From Amycolatopsis pretoriensis (GTDB lineage: Bacteria > Actinomycetota > Actinomycetes > Mycobacteriales > Pseudonocardiaceae): a stretch of 64,000 bases of DNA. The position numbers and the translations under genes were made by a program. The notes under the pieces are model-generated. The model did no database searches. It saw only the letters and a list, made by a program, of their open reading frames with translations, and was not told the DNA's origin. Shown here in pieces: positions 34,184 through 63,394 of the stretch. The stretch is from assembly GCF_900107925.1 (NCBI RefSeq), contig NZ_FNUJ01000003.1, forward strand, positions 62,001 through 126,000. Direction: 5' to 3'. Positions within the stretch are counted from its first letter, which is position 1. Every line of letters begins with the position of its first letter.

Positions 34184-35806
34184 ATGACCTCCGCCACCGC
34201 GCTCGCGGACGAACTGCTGGACGTGCTGGGCACCTTGATGCCGCTCGAAGCGACCTTGGTGGGCATCCCCGGTCACGACGCGCAGCTGCCCGATCCGTCC
34301 GAAGCCGGGCACGCCCGGATCCGGGAGCGGGCCGCCGACGTCCTCGCCCGGGCCAGGGCCTCGGTTGATCCGGACCGGGTGACGCTCGGGGTCGTCGTCC
34401 AGCAGGCCGAGGCGGTGCTCACCCAGCTCGACGCGCGGGTCGTCGAGTTCACCCTCGCCGACCCGATGTTCGCGGTCGGTATCAGCCACCTGTCGTTCCT
34501 GCCGCAGCTGACGCCGTCCGGCGAGCAGGCGGAGGAGGACTACCTGACCCGGCTGGCCGCGCTCCCGGCGTTCTACGCGGCGCTGGCGCAGCGCCAGCTA
34601 GCCGGCCTGCGCGCCGGCCGGACACCGGTGGACCGCAACGCGCGCAACGCGGTCGCGTTCCTGGACCGGTACCTGGCGCAGGAGGAACTGTTCGCCCAGC
34701 CGCTGACGCCCGCCCGCGGCGAGCGTCGCGACCGGCTGGTGGCCGAGGCGGTCCGGCCCGCGTTGACGCGCTACCGCGAGTTCCTGGCCACCGACGTCGT
34801 CGGGCACGGCCGGGCCGACGACCGGCCGGGGCTTTGCCACCTCGAGGACGGAGCAGCGCACTACGCGGCGTTGGCGCGCATGCACACGACCACGAGCCAC
34901 ACGCCGGAGGAGCTGCACCAGCTGGGTCTCGACGTGCTCGCGGAGCTGGAGGCGGAGTACGCCGAGATCGGCGCCCGCGAGTTCGGGTTGACGGACCCGG
35001 CGGAGGTCCGCCACCGGCTTCGCACTTCCGCATCTTTCCGCTGGACGGACGCGGAGGAGATGCTCGAAGTGGCCCGGGCGGCGGTAGCCCGCGCGACGGC
35101 GGCGGCCCCGGAGTGGTTCCATCGGATCCCTCGCGCGGAGTGCGTCGTGCGAGCGGTCCCGGCGGCCGACGCGCCTCTCGCGGCCCCGGCGTACTACTTG
35201 CCGGCGGCCCTCGACGGTTCGCGCCCGGGCATCTACTTCACGAACACCCACGAGGTGCACAAGCGTGACTGGTTCATCGCGGAGACGGTGGCGTTCCACG
35301 AAGCCGTACCGGGCCACCACTTCGAGGTGTCGCTGGCCCAGGAGCTGACGGACCTGCCATTGCTGCGCCGAATCGCCCCGGTGACGGCGTACGGCGAGGG
35401 GTGGGGGTTGTATTCCGAGCGGCTGGCCGACGAGATGGGGTTGTTTTCGAGTGACTTGATGAGGTTGGGAATGGTGGCCGAGGATTCGGTCCGCGCGGCC
35501 CGGCTGGTGGTGGACACGGGCCTGCACGCGTTGGGTTGGACGCGTTCGCAGTGTGTGGAGTTCTTGCGGACGCGGACGGTGTTGAGCGAGGTGGAGGTCC
35601 AGTCGGAGACGGACCGGTATATAGAGTGCCCGGGCCAGGCGCTGGCGTACATGACGGGGCGGTTGGAGATCATGCGCCTGCGGCGGTTCGCCGCGGAGGA
35701 GCTGGGGGAACGGTTTTCTTTGAGGGACTTCCATGGTGTGGTGCTTGGGGGTGGGCCGTTGCCGTTGTCGGTTTTGGAGGAGGTGGTCCGCGCTTGGGTG
35801 GGTTGA
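34184..35806 (+). CDS. DUF885 family (predicted zinc metallopeptidase-like) protein
   Basis: 540 residues. The motif FHEAVPGHHFEVSLAQEL is the HExxxGHH-type metal site of DUF885, with YGEGWGLYSERLADEMG supplying further conserved residues and RYIECPGQALAYMTGRLEI near the end. No signal peptide, so probably cytosolic. Members are related to zincin peptidases but substrates are mostly unknown. It is 22 bp after the IclR gene and is the last gene before the repeat array. Confidence 0.85.
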   Translation: MTSATALADELLDVLGTLMPLEATLVGIPGHDAQLPDPSEAGHARIRERAADVLARARASVDPDRVTLGVVVQQAEAVLTQLDARVVEFTLADPMFAVGISHLSFLPQLTPSGEQAEEDYLTRLAALPAFYAALAQRQLAGLRAGRTPVDRNARNAVAFLDRYLAQEELFAQPLTPARGERRDRLVAEAVRPALTRYREFLATDVVGHGRADDRPGLCHLEDGAAHYAALARMHTTTSHTPEELHQLGLDVLAELEAEYAEIGAREFGLTDPAEVRHRLRTSASFRWTDAEEMLEVARAAVARATAAAPEWFHRIPRAECVVRAVPAADAPLAAPAYYLPAALDGSRPGIYFTNTHEVHKRDWFIAETVAFHEAVPGHHFEVSLAQELTDLPLLRRIAPVTAYGEGWGLYSERLADEMGLFSSDLMRLGMVAEDSVRAARLVVDTGLHALGWTRSQCVEFLRTRTVLSEVEVQSETDRYIECPGQALAYMTGRLEIMRLRRFAAEELGERFSLRDFHGVVLGGGPLPLSVLEEVVRAWVG

Positions 35807-37371
35807 GGTGGAGGAGGTCTCGAGGCTTTGCGGCGCTCACTGACGCAACGGGTGCCGGCCGAGCCAGGTCGCCTTGGCGGGCATCGGGTTCCGACCGCCG
35901 AGCCGACTCCGCGCGGGTGAGGTGGCCAATCCGAGCCGATGCGCCAAGACCGGCCCAGCCGGCCTGGGCCTCCGACCACCGGACCGGGCAGGCCGATTCC
36001 CGCTCGGGTGATGAGGCTTTGGGCTCAAGCTGATGCGCTGAGCCACGACCGGCTCGGCGAGCACCGACTTCCGACCGGGCGGGCAAGCCGAATTGCCGCC
36101 AGACGATGCGGCCGACCCAAGCCAATGCGCCATGACCGGCCCAGCCGGCCTTGGCCTCCGACCGCCGGACCCGGCAGGCCAATTCCCGCTCGAGTGATGC
36201 GGCTTTGGGCTCAAGCTGATGCACCGAGGCACGACCGGCTCGGCGAGCACCGACTTCCGACCGGGCGGGCAAGCCGAATTGCCGCCAGACGATGCGGCCG
36301 ACCCAAGCCAATGCGCCATGACCGGCCCAGCCGGCCTTGGCCTCCGACCGCCGGACCCGGGCAGACCGATTCCGCTCGAGTGATGCGGCTTTGGGCTCAA
36401 GCTGATGCACCGAGCCACGACCGGCTCGGCGAGCACCGACTTCCGACCGGGCGGGCAAGCCGAATTGCCGCCAGACGATGCGGCCGACCCAAGCCAATGC
36501 GCCATGACCGGCCCAGCCGGCCTTGACCTCCGACCGCCGGACCGGGCAACCGACTCCCACCCGGGCAATGCGACGCAGGCTCAGGCTGATGCGCGGGTTA
36601 TGGCCGGCCCGGCGGGCGCTGGCTTCCCGACCGCCGGGCTGAGCAAACCGATACCTGCCCCGGTGACATGGCCGACGCGGCGCGGGCTCAAGCCAATGCG
36701 CCAAGCCAAGACTGACCCGGCGAGTACCCCCTTCCGACCACCGGGCCGGACAAGCCGATTCCTACCCGAGTGACGTCGCCGACGCGGCGCAGGCTCAGGC
36801 TGACGCGCCGAGTTGTGGCTGGCCCGGCGGACCGGCCGGGCTGGAAGGCTGTTTCTCGGCCGTGGCGTGGCCGGTTCAAGCTCATGCGGCGAGCCAAGGC
36901 CCGCTCGGCGGCTACCAGTTTCTGGCCATTGGGTAGAGCGAACCGGTACCTGCCCAGGTGATGCGGCTGATGGCAGTGGGGGCTCAAGCCGATGCGCCGA
37001 GCTAGGCCGGCTCGGCCGGCCGGTTTCCGGCCGTCGGGCCGGGCAAGCAAGCTGATTCCCAGCCGGGTGGGCGTGGTTGATTCAAGCTGGTGCGCCGAAT
37101 GACTTGCCTGTGCCCTCACAACGGCGGGTTTACCGTGTGCGGTGCCCATGCCGGGCTGTAACTCGAGCGGGGGCCAGGCGACGGTGGCCAGGAAGCGACT
37201 TGATCGTTGCTGGCGGTGGGCGGTGGCGAGGCTGATTTGCTGACGTTGCAGAACCAGCACCGTGTCAGCAACGTTTGCCGCCTGCAGTGGCGGATCTACC
37301 GCTGGCAGGGTGAGGACGTGGGTGTAGGCCCGGAGCCTTCTGGCTGCGGGCCTTTCCCATCTTCGGTTGTC
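35807..37371. repeat. degenerate tandem array, about 14 units of ~93 bp
   Basis: No gene is supported in this 1.56-kb gap. From 35842 to about 37100 a unit of roughly 93 bp recurs. The RATGCG anchor is at 35938, 36032, 36124, 36218, 36310, 36404, 36496, 36588, 36695, 36802, 36883, 36991 and, weaker, 35842 and 37089. In the core (36032-36588) units alternate in two versions of 94 and 92 bp, making a 186-bp dimer repeated about three times at near identity; flanking units are diverged and up to 108 bp. Recurring words are ACCGGCYCGGC, TTCCGACCG, GGGCAAGCCGATT and GGGCTCAAGCY. Some units contain a small inverted repeat (GAGCC-N6-GGCTC). From about 37110 to 37325 no repeat or gene was recognised. 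Confidence 0.85.
37326..37353. terminator. hairpin between the repeat array and the HNH gene
   Basis: A 12-bp stem with one mismatch (37326-37337 with 37342-37353) and TTCT loop. On the + strand it is followed by TTTCCC, so it could end a transcript from the array; on the - strand it follows the HNH stop. Confidence 0.55.
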
Positions 37372-38595
37372 TCAAGCCGCGAACGGCAACGGTTGATGCA
37401 GGTTGTTGCGCCTGGGTTTTCGACGCTTGTCCAAGAATGCTGGCGGTAAGAACTCGGGAAGGCCGTCAGCGGCAATGCGGACCTCCCAGCCTGAGCGGTG
37501 CAACAGTCGGTGGTGGTGGGCGCACATCAAGACCAGGTTGGTCAAGTTCGTCGGGCCGCCTTCGGACCAGTGGCGGATGTGGTGACCCTGGCAATGCCGG
37601 GGCGGGCGGTGGCAGCCCGGGAACGCACAGCCTCGGTCGCGCAGGTAGAGCGCTCGGCGTAAGCCTGCGGAGATCAGGCGGCGGAGGCGGCCCAAGTTCA
37701 AGGGCTCGCTCTTCTCGCCTAGGACCGCTGGGATGATCATGCTGTCGCACGCGTGGATCCGCGCCTCGGCTGCCGTGATTGTGCCGGTGTCGCCGAGGGT
37801 TGCCTGGCCGACCGCGGACTTCAGGTCCTTCAACGACACCGCCACCATCACGTGCGCTCGCTCGCCCGCCCGCATCGGCAGGGTCGGGGCGTTAAGGGCC
37901 AGGTCGATCGCGTCGGAGAACGCGTCGCCGTAACGTTCCTGCGGGGAACGGTGATCGCCACCCTCGTCCGTGGTGCGGCGTTCGGCTAGCGCGTCCAGGA
38001 GGGCGCTGGCCCGGGAACCCGTTTCGTCGTCGAAGCGGCCGTGCAGCTCCCAGATACCGGTTCTTTTGCGGCGAAGGGAGAGTTCCCGGTTGGGGATGGC
38101 CGGTTCGGTGGTGTCGGGTTCGGGGCCGTCGGGATCGAGGTGGGCGATGATGCGGGCGCCGAGGGCGGCGACCTGCTTGTGGCCCGCTTCTTCGGCGAAG
38201 GCGAGGAGGTGTTGCTCGGCGTCCTCGCGGTGCTCCGGCGGGATCTGCGTCAGGGCACCGGCGATGGTGTCGATCATCGGGTTGCTCAGGCGACCCTCCG
38301 CGGCCACGGCAGCGGTGGCAGGCGCGACCGTGGGAGGGCTGTCCAGGTGGTGGCCAGGGTGGAGGGAGCGGGCTCGTTTGACAACCGTTTCAGCAGCGGA
38401 CTTCGGGACGTCCGCCAGGTGCTCGAAGAGACGCGCGACAGAGCGGTAACCGAAGAGCTCCATCACTCCACGGGACTCGATCTCCACCAGCAACGCACCG
38501 ATCTCCGCCTCGGCGGAGCGCACCACAGTAAGCAGAGTGGAGATACGATCGGCCAAAGCCATCGCATCCGCCTTCCACGCCGCTTCCGTTGCCAT
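37372..38595 (-). CDS. DUF222/13E12-type HNH endonuclease
   Basis: 407 residues. The N-terminal DUF222 helical domain (MALADRISTLLTVVRSAEAEIGALLVEIESRGVMELFGYRSVARLFEHL) is followed by a C-terminal HNH nuclease: RDRGCAFPGCHRPPRHCQGHHIRHWSEGGPTNLTNLVLMCAHHHRLLH, with both zinc-type Cys pairs and the HH...N...H metal site intact. This family (13E12 repeat family of mycobacteria) is multicopy in actinobacteria and its role is unclear. It directly adjoins the 93-bp array. The promoter looks leaderless: TAGTCT six bases before the ATG. Confidence 0.9.
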   Translation of the reverse strand: MATEAAWKADAMALADRISTLLTVVRSAEAEIGALLVEIESRGVMELFGYRSVARLFEHLADVPKSAAETVVKRARSLHPGHHLDSPPTVAPATAAVAAEGRLSNPMIDTIAGALTQIPPEHREDAEQHLLAFAEEAGHKQVAALGARIIAHLDPDGPEPDTTEPAIPNRELSLRRKRTGIWELHGRFDDETGSRASALLDALAERRTTDEGGDHRSPQERYGDAFSDAIDLALNAPTLPMRAGERAHVMVAVSLKDLKSAVGQATLGDTGTITAAEARIHACDSMIIPAVLGEKSEPLNLGRLRRLISAGLRRALYLRDRGCAFPGCHRPPRHCQGHHIRHWSEGGPTNLTNLVLMCAHHHRLLHRSGWEVRIAADGLPEFLPPAFLDKRRKPRRNNLHQPLPFAA

Positions 38596-38656
38596 ACAAC
38601 AAGACTACCGAACTTCGAACGCATGATCACCACACGAACGAGCTAACTCCCCAAAC

Positions 38657-39085
38657 CTAATGCTGCATACCGTAAGACCTCTGACAGGGATACCCATCAT
38701 TGGTGGCCGACCAGCTGGCCGGATACCCGTTCTGCGCCCAAGCCGCGTACGCCTGCGCGTAGGAGTAGCCGCGCGCGTGCAACCACTGGCACGGCGTCTG
38801 CCCGGCCGCCGGGGTGATCGTGATCCACGGCTGGGCGGAAATCCAGCTCGGCTGGGTATACCACCGGGCAGAAGGAGGCGCGACGACGACGGTCTGCGGT
38901 GGCTGAACGACGACCGTCTGCGGCGGAGCGACAGTGACAGTCGGCGTACTCGGCGCGGTGGTGACCACAGTGGACACTGCCGGCTGACCGCTCCCGGAAA
39001 GAGTCCTCGGCAACCCGCACGCGGCGAGCGCCAACACGGCGGAAAGAACTACTGTTGCGCGGAAAAGACGCATGTGCTGGCTCAT
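38657..39085 (-). CDS. small lipoprotein, unknown function
   Basis: 142 residues. Signal peptide with lipobox LALAACG, then a Pro/Val/Thr-rich stalk containing repeats of PPQTVVV, then a Trp-rich C-terminal domain (WYTQPSWISAQPWITI; PCQWLHARGYSYAQAYAAWAQNGYPASWSATNDGYPCQRSYG) with two cysteines. The ATG at 39085 overlaps the upstream gene's stop (ATGA). The C-terminal part resembles small actinobacterial cell-wall modules but no family is certain. Confidence 0.75.
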   Translation of the reverse strand: MSQHMRLFRATVVLSAVLALAACGLPRTLSGSGQPAVSTVVTTAPSTPTVTVAPPQTVVVQPPQTVVVAPPSARWYTQPSWISAQPWITITPAAGQTPCQWLHARGYSYAQAYAAWAQNGYPASWSATNDGYPCQRSYGMQH

Positions 39086-39480
39086 TTCGTCCGGGTCATG
39101 TGACTTCCGGTGATGACGCCGCCGGAAACCGTATAGGTGCCAGTGAAGATCCGCGTACTGCCGTCGGTCTGCGCAGCGGACAACACGACGGATACCGTGC
39201 TCCCGCGGACCTCCGTCACGGTCAGCGTGTCCCACGACGTCGTCGCGAAACCGTTCACGTACTTGGTATATCCGCCGCCGCCCGCGATTCGGCTGCCGCC
39301 GAGGGACCACGCCGTCGTGAAGTCGCGGCGGTTGAGGGCGTCGTAGTACGCCACCACCGTGTCGGCCGGAGCGGCGTAAGCCGGTTGTGGCACGTAAACC
39401 GTCTGCGGCACGGCGACGACTGCCGTACTGGTGGTCGGTGCCGGTGGTGTGACGGCGACCAGAATTACGGAGGCTTTCAT
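39082..39480 (-). CDS. NTF2-like domain protein
   Basis: 132 residues. A short Pro/Thr/Val-rich leader (TPPAPTTSTAVVAVPQTVYVPQP) precedes an NTF2/SnoaL-like fold: DTVVAYYDALNRRDFTTAWSLGG, then VNGFATTSWDTLTVTEVRGSTVSVVLSAAQTDGSTRIFTGTYTV. Domains of this type sit at the ends of many actinobacterial secreted or membrane proteins. The leader is too weak for a sure signal peptide. I chose the ATG at 39480, preceded by GGAAGAAG; a TTG at 39489 is also open. Co-translated with the lipoprotein gene. Confidence 0.7.
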   Translation of the reverse strand: MKASVILVAVTPPAPTTSTAVVAVPQTVYVPQPAYAAPADTVVAYYDALNRRDFTTAWSLGGSRIAGGGGYTKYVNGFATTSWDTLTVTEVRGSTVSVVLSAAQTDGSTRIFTGTYTVSGGVITGSHMTRTK

Positions 39481-39579
39481 GGGAATCAACTTCTTCCGTG
39501 TCCGCCCTCAGGAATCGGCCGCCCGCGCCGATCCGCAACGGATCCGGGAGAACGCGACCCAAGCGTTATCCCGTGAGGA

Positions 39580-40698
39580 TCAGCCGTTCCGGCGCACGAT
39601 GTCGTGAGCCGTCATCGCCGCGGCCAGTTGACGCGCGTCCGCCGGCTGCGTCGCGTCGTACCCCGTCATCAGCTGGATGCGGCCCAGCCGGTACGTCAAC
39701 GTATTCCGGTGAATGTTCAACGCCGAAGCCGCTTCGCCGCGGTTGTACCCCGACGCCACGAACGCCCGCAAAGCGTCGATCAAATGCGGGTGGTCCGCCA
39801 ACGGCGCCAGCACGAGAGCCAACGCCTCCCGCGCCGGACCGGGCTGGGCGATCTGGTATTCGATCGCCAGATCACCCAGCCGGTAGAGCCGCGGCGGCCG
39901 ACCCAAGTTCTCCGCCAGTGCAAGGATTTCCAACGCCGACGAATGCGCGAAAGGAATGTCCGCGTGCGTCGAAGCGCGGGCGGTGGCCGCGACGCAAGGA
40001 CGTCCGCAAACCCGGTCCACCCGAGCTGCCACGTCGTCGGCGGACGACGAGGCCGGCACCAGCAGCACGCCCCCGTCCCCTTCGAACGTCACCAGCACGC
40101 CCGGCTGACCGTCCAAATCGGACCGGACCGCGCGGAACAGGTCCGTCGCCGCGCGCGAGTCCGCGGCCGCCGGCAACGCGGGCAGGTGGAACGCCACGAC
40201 GTCGTAGCTCTCGGCCAGCTCGCGGCGACGCACCGGCCGGCCGGCGAGCAGGTTGGCCGTGAGGTGCTGCCGGTCCTCCCGCTCCTCCCAGTCGAGCGCG
40301 TCACGCTCACTCAGGTACGCCGAGGCGACGCGCGGCATCACCTCGCCGAGGAAGCCGAGCATCCGCGCCCCGAGCAGCGCGCGGTCGCCGTCGACCTGCT
40401 CCCACGCGACCTGAGCGGCCAGCGGGTAGATCCGCAGCACGGCCTCCAGCGGCAGGCCGTCCCGGGCCCGCTCCGCACCCCACGCGATCGGCAACGCGAG
40501 CTCCTCGGCGGTCGGCCGGCGGTCCTCCGCCACCGTCGCCAGGAACAGCTCGAACACGGCCGTCGCGTTGGCGACCAGGTCACCTTCGAGCACGCTCGCC
40601 GGCAGCAGCCGGTACGCCGGGATCTCGGCGGCGCACCGGGCGATCATCGCGGCGGCGATCTCCCCGGACCGCGGGAAGAGCGCCTCGACGGCATCCAC
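39580..40698 (-). CDS. PucR/CdaR-type helix-turn-helix regulator
   Basis: 372 residues. The C-terminal PucR HTH is clear: ALRAFVASGYNRGEAASALNIHRNTLTYRLGRIQLMTGYD. The middle holds a GGDEF-like degenerate domain (VAFHLPALP, GVLVTFEGDGGVLLVPAS), and the N-terminal ~150 residues are helical. The GTG at 40698 was selected as a leaderless start: GACAAT lies about five bases before it. The frame is open to 40734. It is divergent from the lipase gene and may control it. Confidence 0.82.
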   Translation of the reverse strand: MDAVEALFPRSGEIAAAMIARCAAEIPAYRLLPASVLEGDLVANATAVFELFLATVAEDRRPTAEELALPIAWGAERARDGLPLEAVLRIYPLAAQVAWEQVDGDRALLGARMLGFLGEVMPRVASAYLSERDALDWEEREDRQHLTANLLAGRPVRRRELAESYDVVAFHLPALPAAADSRAATDLFRAVRSDLDGQPGVLVTFEGDGGVLLVPASSSADDVAARVDRVCGRPCVAATARASTHADIPFAHSSALEILALAENLGRPPRLYRLGDLAIEYQIAQPGPAREALALVLAPLADHPHLIDALRAFVASGYNRGEAASALNIHRNTLTYRLGRIQLMTGYDATQPADARQLAAAMTAHDIVRRNG

Positions 40699-60801: not shown

Positions 60802-61224
60802 ATGACCCAGTCGCTCGAACTCCCGGTCCAGGAATTCTGTCTCGATTGGACGCTCACGGGCGACGAAAGCGGGCGGGTCGCCGTCACGCTCTCCGGGCAG
60901 GTGTCCCTGCTCGACAACAACCGGTTCTACAAGATCGACGGCGTCGTCTACGTCACCGAGGGTGACGCCGACATCCGCGCGGTCGGCAACCCGTGCCTGT
61001 CCGTGCGCCGTAACGGCGTCGAGAAGTCCGGGCGCCAGTGGGGCTGGGAGATGTGCTCGGCCCGCAAGCGGCTCGGCGCGCTGAACACGATGGAGGGCTA
61101 CTTCGTCCGCACCGGCTACTGGGCGCCCGCCGACCGCGCGATCCAGCTGGGCCTCTGCGCCGAAACCGGGTGGAGCCGGCGCAAGAGCTACAGCCCGCAC
61201 GTCACCGTCCGGATGGTCGACTGA
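60802..61224 (+). CDS. uncharacterised small protein
   Basis: 140 residues, no family recognised. It begins TQSLELPVQEFCLDWTLTGDESGRVAVTLSGQVSLLDNNRFYKIDGVVYV, has three Cys (FCLDW, NPCLSV, EMCSAR) and many aromatic residues, and reads as a compact beta-rich soluble protein without signal peptide. ATG follows GGGGAAC. Its 3' end overlaps the convergent kinase gene by 23 bp. Confidence 0.65.
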   Translation: MTQSLELPVQEFCLDWTLTGDESGRVAVTLSGQVSLLDNNRFYKIDGVVYVTEGDADIRAVGNPCLSVRRNGVEKSGRQWGWEMCSARKRLGALNTMEGYFVRTGYWAPADRAIQLGLCAETGWSRRKSYSPHVTVRMVD

Positions 61225-63394
61225 CCACTGTGGACGCGCGGCGCCGCGCCGCCGCGACCACGAGCCCCGCCGCGACCGCACCCGCGACGGCGCACCCGGC
61301 GCCGAACCCCGGCGCCGGCTCGTGCACCCGCAACACGCAGACGCACAGCCACGCGACGGCGCCGAACAGCAGGCCCAGCACCGGCCCGCCCACGGCCGCG
61401 CCGCGCCAGCGGTGGCCGTTGCGGATGGTCCGCAGCCCGGATTCGAGGTAGGCGAGCGCGAACAGCGCCAGGATCAGGCTGCCCGCGCCCATCGCGCTGG
61501 CCAGCGGGTGCTGGCTGGTGAGCAGAGTGAAGGTCTGGGTGACGGGTCCGGTTTGGACGGTCGCGGTGACCGCCCCGCCGACCACCCACCGCGCGATCGC
61601 CGGCAGGGTGAGCTCGGCGGTGAAGCCGTTGCCGGCCGGCTTCGCGACGGTTTCAGCCGAGCCGAGCGGAATCCCGGCGGCGGACAGGCTGATCGCGACC
61701 CGCCCGGGGTTCCCGGCCCCGGCGAGGACGAGCGGCGTGCTGAGGTCCACTTCGACCGGAGCGGTGACGCGGGTGTCGCCGAGCAACAGGGTGGGCGACG
61801 CCTCGTGCGGCAATCGGTCAGGGTTGAGCAGCGCGAGGACGACGAGAACGACGGCGGCGGCAGCGGCGGCCAGGCGGAGCCAGAGGACGGCGGCCTGGGA
61901 GCGGCTGGAAGGGTCGGAATCCGGGGCGAGGGTGCCACCGGCCGAGCCGGAGCCGGTGCCGCCGAAGCCGGACGCGGAGCCGGAGCTGCCCGCCGGGCTC
62001 GCACCGCCACCGGCATAGCCCGCCTGGAGACCGCCTGCCGAGCCGGAACCCGCTCCGGCGAAGCCGGCCGCGGCGCCCGGGTTGCCGGCCAGACCGGCTC
62101 CGGCCGCAGCGCCACCCGCATAACCCGCCTGGAGACCGCCTGCCGAGCCAGAACCCGCTCCGGCCGCAGCGCCACCCGCATAGCCCGCCTGGGGACCGCC
62201 TGCCGAGCCGGAACCCGCGCCGGCCGCAGGGCCACTGGCATAGCCGGCCTGGGGACCGTCTGCCAGGCTCGTGCCGCTGGCAGAGCCTGGTCCGAAGCCG
62301 CCCGCGGCTCCTGCCGAGCCAGGCCCGCCGGCGAAGCCGGCCGCGGCGCCCCCTGCCAGGCCTGCGCCACCCGCAGCGCCACCCGAGCCGGGGCTCGTGG
62401 CCACCCCACCACTCGTCGCGACGAGTGTCGCGTTTGGACCCGTTGGCCTTCTCACCGGCCGCGTCAGCTCTTCGCCCGGCGAAACCGTGGCCGAGTTCAA
62501 CCCCGCGATCACCCGGGGCGTCAAGTGCAGCACCGGCACTCCGGACCGCTCCAGCCACCCCGGCCCGTAAACCGCCGTCGCCGCTCCGGCCAGGTCCGCC
62601 GCGAACGACTCCGCCTCTCGGTACCGCGAGTCCAGCTCGCGGGCCAGCGCTCGCATGATCACGCCCGCGATCGGCATCGGTACGCCCGAAATCGGCTTCG
62701 GGTCGGTGAACATGTGCTGGCGCATCATGCTGATCGCGCCGCGCGTGTTGTCGAACGGCAGCTCCCTCGCCAGCAGCTCGTACAGCACCGTGCCCGCCGC
62801 GTACACGTCGGCCGCCGGGCTCAGGGCGTTGCCCATCGCCTGCTCCGGGGCGATGTACGCCGGCGTGCCGAGGATTTCGCCACCGTGCGTGACCAGGGTC
62901 GCGCCCTCGCTGATCACCCGGGCGATGCCGAAGTCGGCCACCTTCACCACGCCCTGCAGGGTGAACAGCAAGTTGCGCGGCTTGACGTCCAGGTGCAGCA
63001 CGCCCGCGCGGTGCGCCGCGTGCAGCCCGGCGAGCATCGCCAGGCCGATCGCGCACGCCTGCTCGCCGGTGACACCGTCGCCGTGGAACCGGCTGTGCAC
63101 GGTGCCGCCGTCGAGGCGCTCCATCACCAGCAGGTGCTCGCGGCCGGTGCGGACGTAGTCGTACACCGGCACGATGTGCGGGTGGTCCAGGCTGGCCAGC
63201 ACGCGCGCCTCGCGGTCGAACAGCTCGCTGCTCGCCGCGTGGTTGAGCACGTCCCACGGCAGCTGCTTGATCGCGACGTTCCGCCCGAGCGTCCGGTGCG
63301 TCCCGGCGAACACGACCCCCATGCCGCCTTCGCCGATCTCCGCCCCGATGTCGTACTGCGGCAGGGCGGCGACCAGCTCGGCCGGTGCGCTCAT
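61202..63394 (-). CDS. membrane Ser/Thr protein kinase with Gly/Ala repeat linker
   Basis: 730 residues. Kinase domain: glycine loop IGEGGMGVVF, Lys43 in AIKQLP, catalytic loop HLDVKPRN (Asp136; Leu replaces the usual Arg of HRD), DFG at 154-156, GTPAYIAPEQAMG. Kinase ends near residue 275. A ~150-residue linker follows containing a 20-residue repeat (GGLQAGYAGGAAAGAGSGSA). Then TM1 (VLWLRLAAAAAAVVLVVLALL), a ~100-residue external domain, and three more hydrophobic helices near the C-terminus. The start overlaps the stop of the upstream membrane gene (ATGA). Confidence 0.88.
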   Translation of the reverse strand: MSAPAELVAALPQYDIGAEIGEGGMGVVFAGTHRTLGRNVAIKQLPWDVLNHAASSELFDREARVLASLDHPHIVPVYDYVRTGREHLLVMERLDGGTVHSRFHGDGVTGEQACAIGLAMLAGLHAAHRAGVLHLDVKPRNLLFTLQGVVKVADFGIARVISEGATLVTHGGEILGTPAYIAPEQAMGNALSPAADVYAAGTVLYELLARELPFDNTRGAISMMRQHMFTDPKPISGVPMPIAGVIMRALARELDSRYREAESFAADLAGAATAVYGPGWLERSGVPVLHLTPRVIAGLNSATVSPGEELTRPVRRPTGPNATLVATSGGVATSPGSGGAAGGAGLAGGAAAGFAGGPGSAGAAGGFGPGSASGTSLADGPQAGYASGPAAGAGSGSAGGPQAGYAGGAAAGAGSGSAGGLQAGYAGGAAAGAGLAGNPGAAAGFAGAGSGSAGGLQAGYAGGGASPAGSSGSASGFGGTGSGSAGGTLAPDSDPSSRSQAAVLWLRLAAAAAAVVLVVLALLNPDRLPHEASPTLLLGDTRVTAPVEVDLSTPLVLAGAGNPGRVAISLSAAGIPLGSAETVAKPAGNGFTAELTLPAIARWVVGGAVTATVQTGPVTQTFTLLTSQHPLASAMGAGSLILALFALAYLESGLRTIRNGHRWRGAAVGGPVLGLLFGAVAWLCVCVLRVHEPAPGFGAGCAVAGAVAAGLVVAAARRRASTVVSRPSGR
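61995..62280 (-). repeat. 60-bp tandem repeats in the kinase linker
   Basis: Near-identical 60-bp units start at 62101, 62161 and 62221 (last one diverged); a separate copy lies at about 61995-62060. They encode the 20-residue Gly/Ala repeat. Unit length is a multiple of three, so copy changes keep the frame. Confidence 0.75.

Follow-up and report, generated by a model that had tools for sequence, protein, structure and literature searches.

What is a degenerate tandem array doing in a gene-free gap of the Amycolatopsis pretoriensis genome, and how did it come to be there? The array lies in a window of 64,000 nucleotides, by which we mean the whole stretch of DNA analysed here, and it had been singled out from the letters alone, with suggestions for its origin that ranged from slippage to a nuclease target.

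The array and what it is not

The gap between the adjacent genes runs from 35807 to 37371 and, as had been claimed, holds no supported gene. The array itself was confirmed by Tandem Repeats Finder, by a profile and by a covariance model, although its units, given as about 14 in the original prediction, number 13 both by eye and by the covariance model. Its core (35938-36587) is laid out in 94/92-bp pairs, and the starts of the core units, at 35938, 36032, 36124, 36218, 36310, 36404 and 36496, show the alternation of two subtypes that had been described for the central units. Tandem Repeats Finder reports 186 bp x 3.3 copies at 35934-36548 (95% matches) and, at 36570-36829, a further row with a period of 107; the profile, built from six core units, recovers 12 units, whose envelopes span 35859-37086. 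Searched against the 10.3-Mb genome (150 of 32,835 first-look candidates scored), the covariance model has 13 matches at E <= 1, all of them within the array. Comparison of the array with itself over lags of 20-499, the check proposed for periodicity, gives identity above 42% at 186 and 372 only. The array is not a chance arrangement, because its 3' flank (in the orientation of the neighbouring DUF222-HNH gene, Table 1) has a self-match of 754 bits, while 0 of 84 dinucleotide-shuffled 3' flanks reach 40 bits. Repeated unequal exchange or slippage, the process first proposed, fits this arrangement.

Table 1. Features of the array locus and its flanks, in window coordinates.
Feature	Position	Strand	Remarks
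Degenerate tandem array, 13 units of ~93 bp	35842..37090	+	3' of the DUF222-HNH gene; not present at empty sites
Whole insertion, 2,850 bp	35807..38656	.	Separates two genes whose 3' ends meet or overlap in relatives
DUF222-HNH endonuclease gene, 407 aa, cassette core	37372..38595	-	PF02720 7.7e-34, PF01844 5.2e-06
SOS/LexA-like box GATC-ATGC-GTTC	38617..38628	-	1 mismatch to GAAC-N4-GTTC; -33 to -22 of the gene
Terminator-like hairpin downstream of the gene	37326..37353	-	Fold z -3.11, matched by 0 of 200 shuffles; seen in copies
Conserved 3' terminal motif CCTACACCCACG	37317..37328	-	Sequence comparison of cassette copies
Last 500 nt of the DUF885 gene	35307..35806	+	Inward C>T/G>A 22/4, C>G/G>C 21/1
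Other flank, lipoprotein-like gene onward	38657..40156	.	Plus-strand G>A/C>T 19/4 in 500 nt, 41/11 in 1,500 nt

Several identities can be set aside. The suggested blastn search returned just short, chance-level matches in the organism's own genome and in 60 relatives, and no match beyond chance level was found in plasmid and phage collections, so that the array is not a dispersed repeat. It is not CRISPR, as had been said: the alignment of units runs on without spacers, where a CRISPR array would have identical repeats with distinct spacers between them. The idea of a structured RNA array finds no support in folding, since the consensus unit forms 8 pairs at -4.1 kcal/mol and four single units fold no better than their shuffles (z 0.08, -0.50, -1.17 and -0.33); over the window no Rfam family reaches its gathering score, and the three weak sub-threshold matches all lie outside the array. 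A plus-strand frame, open over the core only, does score above the cut-off for PF23016 RsmI_C (37 bits vs 27), but this match is a sum over repeats, because single 186-bp units stay under the cut-off at 14.6-16.1 bits, and we reject it as a sign of an encoded protein. An array of fixed-sequence protein-binding sites, another of the early suggestions, is not supported either, since other species with a cassette at the same site have repeats that match little or not at all; at the window's own site, the 118-bp array of A. iheyensis (L123) does not match that of the window. Derivation of the array from the cassette's own sequence was considered and rejected as well, the alignments being mostly at shuffle level with a best p of 0.03 in six comparisons.

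An inserted endonuclease cassette

We fetched the DUF885 regions of 13 relatives, seven of which are syntenic and were used. In six of the seven the flanking genes, encoding a DUF885 protein and a lipoprotein-like protein, abut or overlap tail to tail; the seventh has an additional small gene in between. Since the flanking genes meet in six of seven relatives, 35807-38656 is inserted DNA, array included, and array and gene make up one insertion in which the array is not a free-standing repeat. The earlier assertion that this is no insertion sequence holds for the repeat as such, but overlooks that the repeat belongs to an inserted, multi-copy and mobile-looking cassette. No DDE or similar transposase domain is found in the cassette gene, which shows DUF222 and HNH only, so by its domains the cassette does not pass for an insertion sequence. 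The suggestion that a nuclease is involved fits, with a DUF222-HNH endonuclease gene adjoining the array.

In the encoded protein a DUF222 domain is followed by an HNH domain, both over their Pfam cut-offs, as in the 13E12/DUF222-HNH family, and the dispersed copies typical of that family are also seen: A. pretoriensis has 4 copies of the gene, the other three 90-91% identical in DNA to the window copy, and Amycolatopsis sp. MtRt-6 has at least 28 DUF222 loci, including three pairs with identical ends. Nearly all close relatives of the cassette protein come from Amycolatopsis. Across 24 aligned sequences C323, C328, H338, H339, N353, C358, H361 and H362 are invariant, and the HNH catalytic motif expected of a homing endonuclease is, at the level of sequence, intact. 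Occupied and empty alleles at one site, also expected of homing endonucleases, occur at three sites, and at all three, compared with empty relatives, the cassette is placed where two convergent genes abut. The gene has no RuvC-like Pfam domain and the window no Rfam guide RNA at gathering score, which separates the cassette from IscB/OMEGA systems.

Comparison of the four loci in A. pretoriensis marks out the edges of the cassette, identity extending from about 45-92 bp before the start codon to about 55-65 bp past the stop and then ending sharply. The common 5' edge contains the SOS-like box, and the common 3' edge is the terminator-like hairpin followed by CCTACACCCACG; the duplicated unit of the L058 cassette takes in this motif, and the duplication at L060 starts inside it. 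With one mismatch at most, the box is present in 61 of 77 cassettes (35 perfect) against 9 of 231 control stretches, and judged from its letters it is a putative LexA/SOS operator of the type reported for some members of the family.

A few further observations concern the DNA around the cassettes. A palindromic element (GTGGGGAATCGGCGCT ... AGCGCCGATTCCCCAC) lies just 5' of cassettes in several species, for example at about 6600-6740 of L058, a palindrome-like upstream motif being found in 42 of 74 cassettes, and a second motif, CGAAATGACCTGAACAGTTAC, likewise recurs just 5' of cassettes in different species; both may be further mobile or target sequences. By eye, many of the MtRt-6 loci (L079-L146) have a common upstream stretch and a partly common 3' tail from which different internal pieces are missing.

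Arrays in the tails of other cassettes

Removal of 4 duplicates with identical ends and of L132, L146 and L150, which have broken or odd gene ends, reduced 92 loci to 85, the 3' flank being complete in 84 of these and the 5' flank in 76. We called an array where a 1,500-nt flank matches itself in blastn with 40 bits or more. This was the case for 24 of 84 flanks on the 3' side and 1 of 76 on the 5' side (Fisher 4.7e-07), compared with 6 of 82 (3') and 4 of 75 (5') windows placed 2 kb out and 0 of 84 shuffles; at 150 bits or more the counts are 12 on the 3' side, 0 on the 5' side, 1 (3') and 0 (5') at 2 kb out, and 0 among shuffles. Of the 24 array tails, 19 have a best match that starts no more than 300 nt from the stop. 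At the 40-bit threshold the remaining 60 of 84 tails have no array, and in MtRt-6 arrays occur in 2 of 24. The 24 array tails do not match each other between genomes, and some match within one genome (L125-L126-L128, L124-L143 and L071-L074).

Two further sites of the A. pretoriensis genome were compared with relatives, site A with 19 and site B with 13, using one genome per species. At site A, 8 of 20 taxa have a cassette, 11 are cassette-free and 1 has 3.7 kb of other DNA; the cassette-free taxa L222 and L223 hold other inserts of 1.1 kb. The tails of seven filled taxa there measure 363, 380, 564, 830, 871, 1,013 and 1,744 bp (for L058 the measurement stops some 90 bp before the junction), and 4 of these 7 have arrays with differing units, the best being 148 (L058), 171 (L207, = 2 x 85), 215 (L209) and 65 bp (L211). 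In two more species at this site the best tandem units are 98 (L125) and 57 bp (L143). Arrays cross-match here only in the close pair L069/L070 and over short stretches of L207 with L208 and L211. None of the three non-DUF222 inserts of 1.1-3.7 kb at site A reaches a 40-bit self-match. At site B, 1 of 3 filled taxa has an array (L059), and the fragment locus L233 has a 63-bit self-match. At one site tails are of different lengths, and most species also differ in the sequence of the repeats, their arrays being wholly different.

A. iheyensis is the one other filled species found at the window's site. Its cassette and array lie between IclR and PucR genes, with no match there to the DUF885 or lipoprotein-like gene, which suggests a deletion at the cassette.

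The DUF222-HNH protein alone is not sufficient for arrays or for the strand switch described below, because DUF222 loci outside the cassette lineage show neither clearly. We took 40 such loci, 38 in other genera and 2 of a divergent subfamily within the genus, and placed them by known domain coordinates; the motif anchor recovered 19 of the 40 and was negative there too. Self-matches occur in 2 of 40 3' flanks and 3 of 40 5' flanks, and in place of a clear strand switch the 3' side has a faint GC skew in the direction seen at the cassettes, between -0.01 and -0.06 past 250 nt.

A strand-switching scar in the flanks

The DNA on both sides of the cassettes is unusual in composition. With the loci in gene orientation, GC skew over 85 loci in the 250-nt edge is +0.105 on the 5' side and -0.165 on the 3' side and decays to about zero over 2 kb (5') and 3.25 kb (3'); AT skew has the opposite sign, and G+C falls from about 0.72 to 0.64 and 0.69 at the cassette edges. 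Both signs are found in 51 of 74 loci and the reverse in 3, and two A. bullii loci have no asymmetry (-0.003). In the window the plus strand of the array core is rich in C and A, a skew opposite to the expected trend, and the whole 3' flank has a GC skew of -0.01, compared with -0.22 to -0.35 in six of eight other array loci. The composition also flips between the start and the end of the gene, fourfold sites having T 0.21 and A 0.02 at the 5' end and T 0.03 and A 0.245 at the 3' end, against T 0.038 and A 0.017 in seven host genes; because of coding constraint, the flip point does not give a sharp break position.

We polarised substitutions against cassette-free relatives and counted them on the inward strand, the one whose 3' end points at the cassette. 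On the left of the window cassette, where the filled allele has a strong excess of C>T and C>G (Table 1), seven cassette-free taxa together have C>T/G>A 20/26 and C>G/G>C 34/37 over the same 500 nt; over equal stretches C>T/G>A is 21/1 against 17/23 in 420 nt (a hand-picked length) and 23/6 against 23/27 in 600 nt. On the right, inward C>T/G>A in 500 nt is 19/4 compared with 31/33 in cassette-free taxa. The C>G excess is clear on the left of this cassette only (right: 8/6 vs 56/29).

Over 500 nt on the left of site A, C>T/G>A is 97/10 in filled taxa, 21/28 in cassette-free taxa and 2/0 in the taxon with another insert, and the right of that site has no excess (29/16 filled vs 22/12 cassette-free). 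The left of site B gives 86/15 against 13/7 (mostly L224), and the difference comes to p 0.053 because the cassette-free taxa lean the same way; this p value, like the others reported here, is optimistic, since relatedness links the filled taxa of one site as well as the copies of one genome, and neither are independent. On the right of site B, filled and cassette-free taxa have 39/6 vs 15/9 and, at 500-1000 nt, 23/6 vs 3/7. L214 has no right flank in the comparison of the two sites. Past 500 nt the left signal is absent (A 22/32, B 10/17). L226 and L227, whose DUF222 genes are divergent (~56% identical), were counted apart and have no scar, with 5 C>T vs 13 G>A on the left. At site B, L233 (G077), with a gene fragment, and L236 (G099), with no detectable gene, keep the scar (39/12 left), and both resemble footprints of a lost cassette. 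Taken together, the flanks carry a two-sided, strand-switching C>T gradient aimed at the cassette.

Likeness of copies within genomes

Thirteen sites are common to more than one species. Among 76 near-full-length genes, mean identity is 0.892 within the same genome (n 353), 0.777 at the same site in different genomes (n 72) and 0.760 for other pairs (n 2,425), and the nearest neighbour is from the same genome for 72 of 76. In a midpoint-rooted FastTree phylogeny the copies are monophyletic in 13 of the 14 genomes with two or more, the exception being sp. A133. Cassettes that share a genome resemble each other more than do cassettes that share a site in different genomes, a pattern that both concerted evolution and repeated insertion at preferred sites would produce, and which does not separate the two.

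A possible mechanism and its alternatives

On balance we lean towards regarding the array as the 3' tail of a mobile, multi-copy DUF222-HNH cassette with an SOS-like box that has been broken and repaired repeatedly; the cut, its place and the deamination are steps that we infer. At the core of the cassette there would be a damage-inducible, selfish HNH nuclease, switched on by DNA damage, that cuts or nicks cassette-bearing loci, the break falling inside the cassette or at its end. Resection in the 5'-to-3' direction would then bare the strands whose 3' ends face the break, and cytosines on the bared strands would be deaminated and then copied by error-prone synthesis. Another copy of the cassette would serve as the repair template, so that the genes become homogenised, while the tail, lacking fixed homology, would be rebuilt by slipped or microhomology-mediated joining because it has no fixed partner, and tandem arrays would be built and rebuilt in the process. 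The array would then be repair debris that forms again and again, and the 93-bp array with its recent 186-bp amplification would be one such product. The SOS-type operator, taken with the reported LexA control of M. tuberculosis relatives, suggests by analogy when the nuclease might act, and the flank scar suggests that occupied loci are broken too. We consider about as likely as not the wider claim that a damage-induced chromosomal nuclease family repeatedly breaks its own loci, leaving a kataegis-like single-switch scar in host genes and new locus-specific 3' arrays, with the cassettes acting as heritable fragile sites and local mutators.

The cassette might instead be passive, landing where selection is absent, with ordinary slippage making the tail repeats and the direction of replication or transcription making the skew. 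That arrays lie in non-coding tails, and that most tails are without one, would be expected from such an origin, and we still find it unlikely. A replication skew would not flip its sign at the cassette as it does in the majority of loci, relaxed selection alone should yield symmetric changes, cassette-free sites with the same convergent genes have no switch, and the three non-DUF222 inserts at site A are without a 40-bit array. If transcription were responsible, gene direction should set the sign, but 5' neighbours at 500-1000 nt show the opposite of this prediction (on a rough coding call), those coding on the minus strand having an inward GC skew of +0.095 (n 10) and those on the plus strand -0.006 (n 21).

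The break itself could have another source. SbcCD-type nucleases cleave hairpins at palindromes, and if the upstream palindromic element were cut in this way the HNH protein would not be needed. The 5' skew is indeed stronger in the 42 of 74 cassettes with the motif (AT -0.138 vs -0.026, GC +0.038 vs +0.014), but the motif makes no difference to the 3' skew (-0.102 with it, -0.112 otherwise), and the arrays are on the other side of the cassette. The window cassette, with 61 bp to the next gene, has no room for the element, yet is scarred, and the word of the left arm, searched for exactly, occurs once in the genome, at the L058 cassette. We consider a palindrome-driven break quite improbable.

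We give a similarly low probability to a scar left once, in which mutations and tail repeats were made during insertion (for example by break-induced replication) and no repeated cutting came later. A single event also yields strand-coordinated clusters, and the scars that persist at L233 and L236 are in keeping with it. It does not by itself account for units and tail lengths that differ between species at one site, nor for copies homogenised within genomes, although independent re-insertion at preferred sites could mimic both. That the array codes for a repeat protein or a structured RNA is very improbable, given the sub-threshold scores of its single units, a frame confined to the core, shuffle-level folds and relatives with no match above chance.

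Related systems

The REP13E12 or 13E12 members of M. tuberculosis combine a DUF222 and an HNH domain, and the window cassette is like them in this domain pair, in its multi-copy state and in a predicted LexA control. Its tail arrays and scar set it apart from the 40 DUF222 loci examined outside the lineage, which lack both in clear form. In the literature, 'REP13E12/HNH endonuclease/DUF222' is given as one category of repeats (PMC10589994), four M. tuberculosis genes of the 13E12 family are counted in the LexA regulon (PMC5005354) and a role in mismatch repair is proposed for the 13E12/DUF222-HNH group (PMC4181829). The literature found offers only proposals for what these proteins do, though DUF222 genes are widespread in the order, occurring in 42 of 61 genomes. 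Among the open-licence papers listed, no title or abstract opening describes repeat arrays in the tails, or a scar in the flanks, of DUF222 genes. The flank mutation pattern would be a readable record of break positions and a direct test of function.

The closest precedent for the mechanism that we favour is SegB, a free-standing homing endonuclease of T-even phages for which tandem amplification through breaks and recombination is described (PMC13096335). By that account a small endonuclease gene amplifies DNA that includes its own neighbourhood, with microhomology at the joint. SegB differs in being a GIY-YIG enzyme of phage, with a 718-bp gene-bearing repeat under selection, whereas the cassette is HNH, chromosomal and followed by non-coding repeats. 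For the flanks the parallel is with resected breaks in yeast, where PMC6786661 reports single-switch clusters with C changes to the left and G changes to the right on the top strand. The cassette flanks have the same C-left/G-right pattern; the yeast clusters are APOBEC-damaged and follow induced breaks, whereas those of the cassette would have accumulated over evolution in a bacterium. If our preferred explanation is true, the cassettes offer a natural example, in a bacterium, of strand-switching hypermutation where an endogenous endonuclease gene lies, as well as a source of new tandem arrays, and this would explain the locally fast-evolving ends of neighbouring genes.

The HNH motif of the cassette protein is also similar to that of IscB/OMEGA nucleases (best PDB sequence match 7.7e-05 over about 40 residues). 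This match is in the HNH part only, the cassette having no other domain of these nucleases and no Rfam match at gathering score.

A second, smaller tandem array, 60 bp x 3.1, lies at 62083-62264 of the window, within a long minus-strand frame (61202-63394) that by eye opens like a serine/threonine protein kinase and has a Gly/Ala-rich linker at this place; these are probably ordinary coding repeats.
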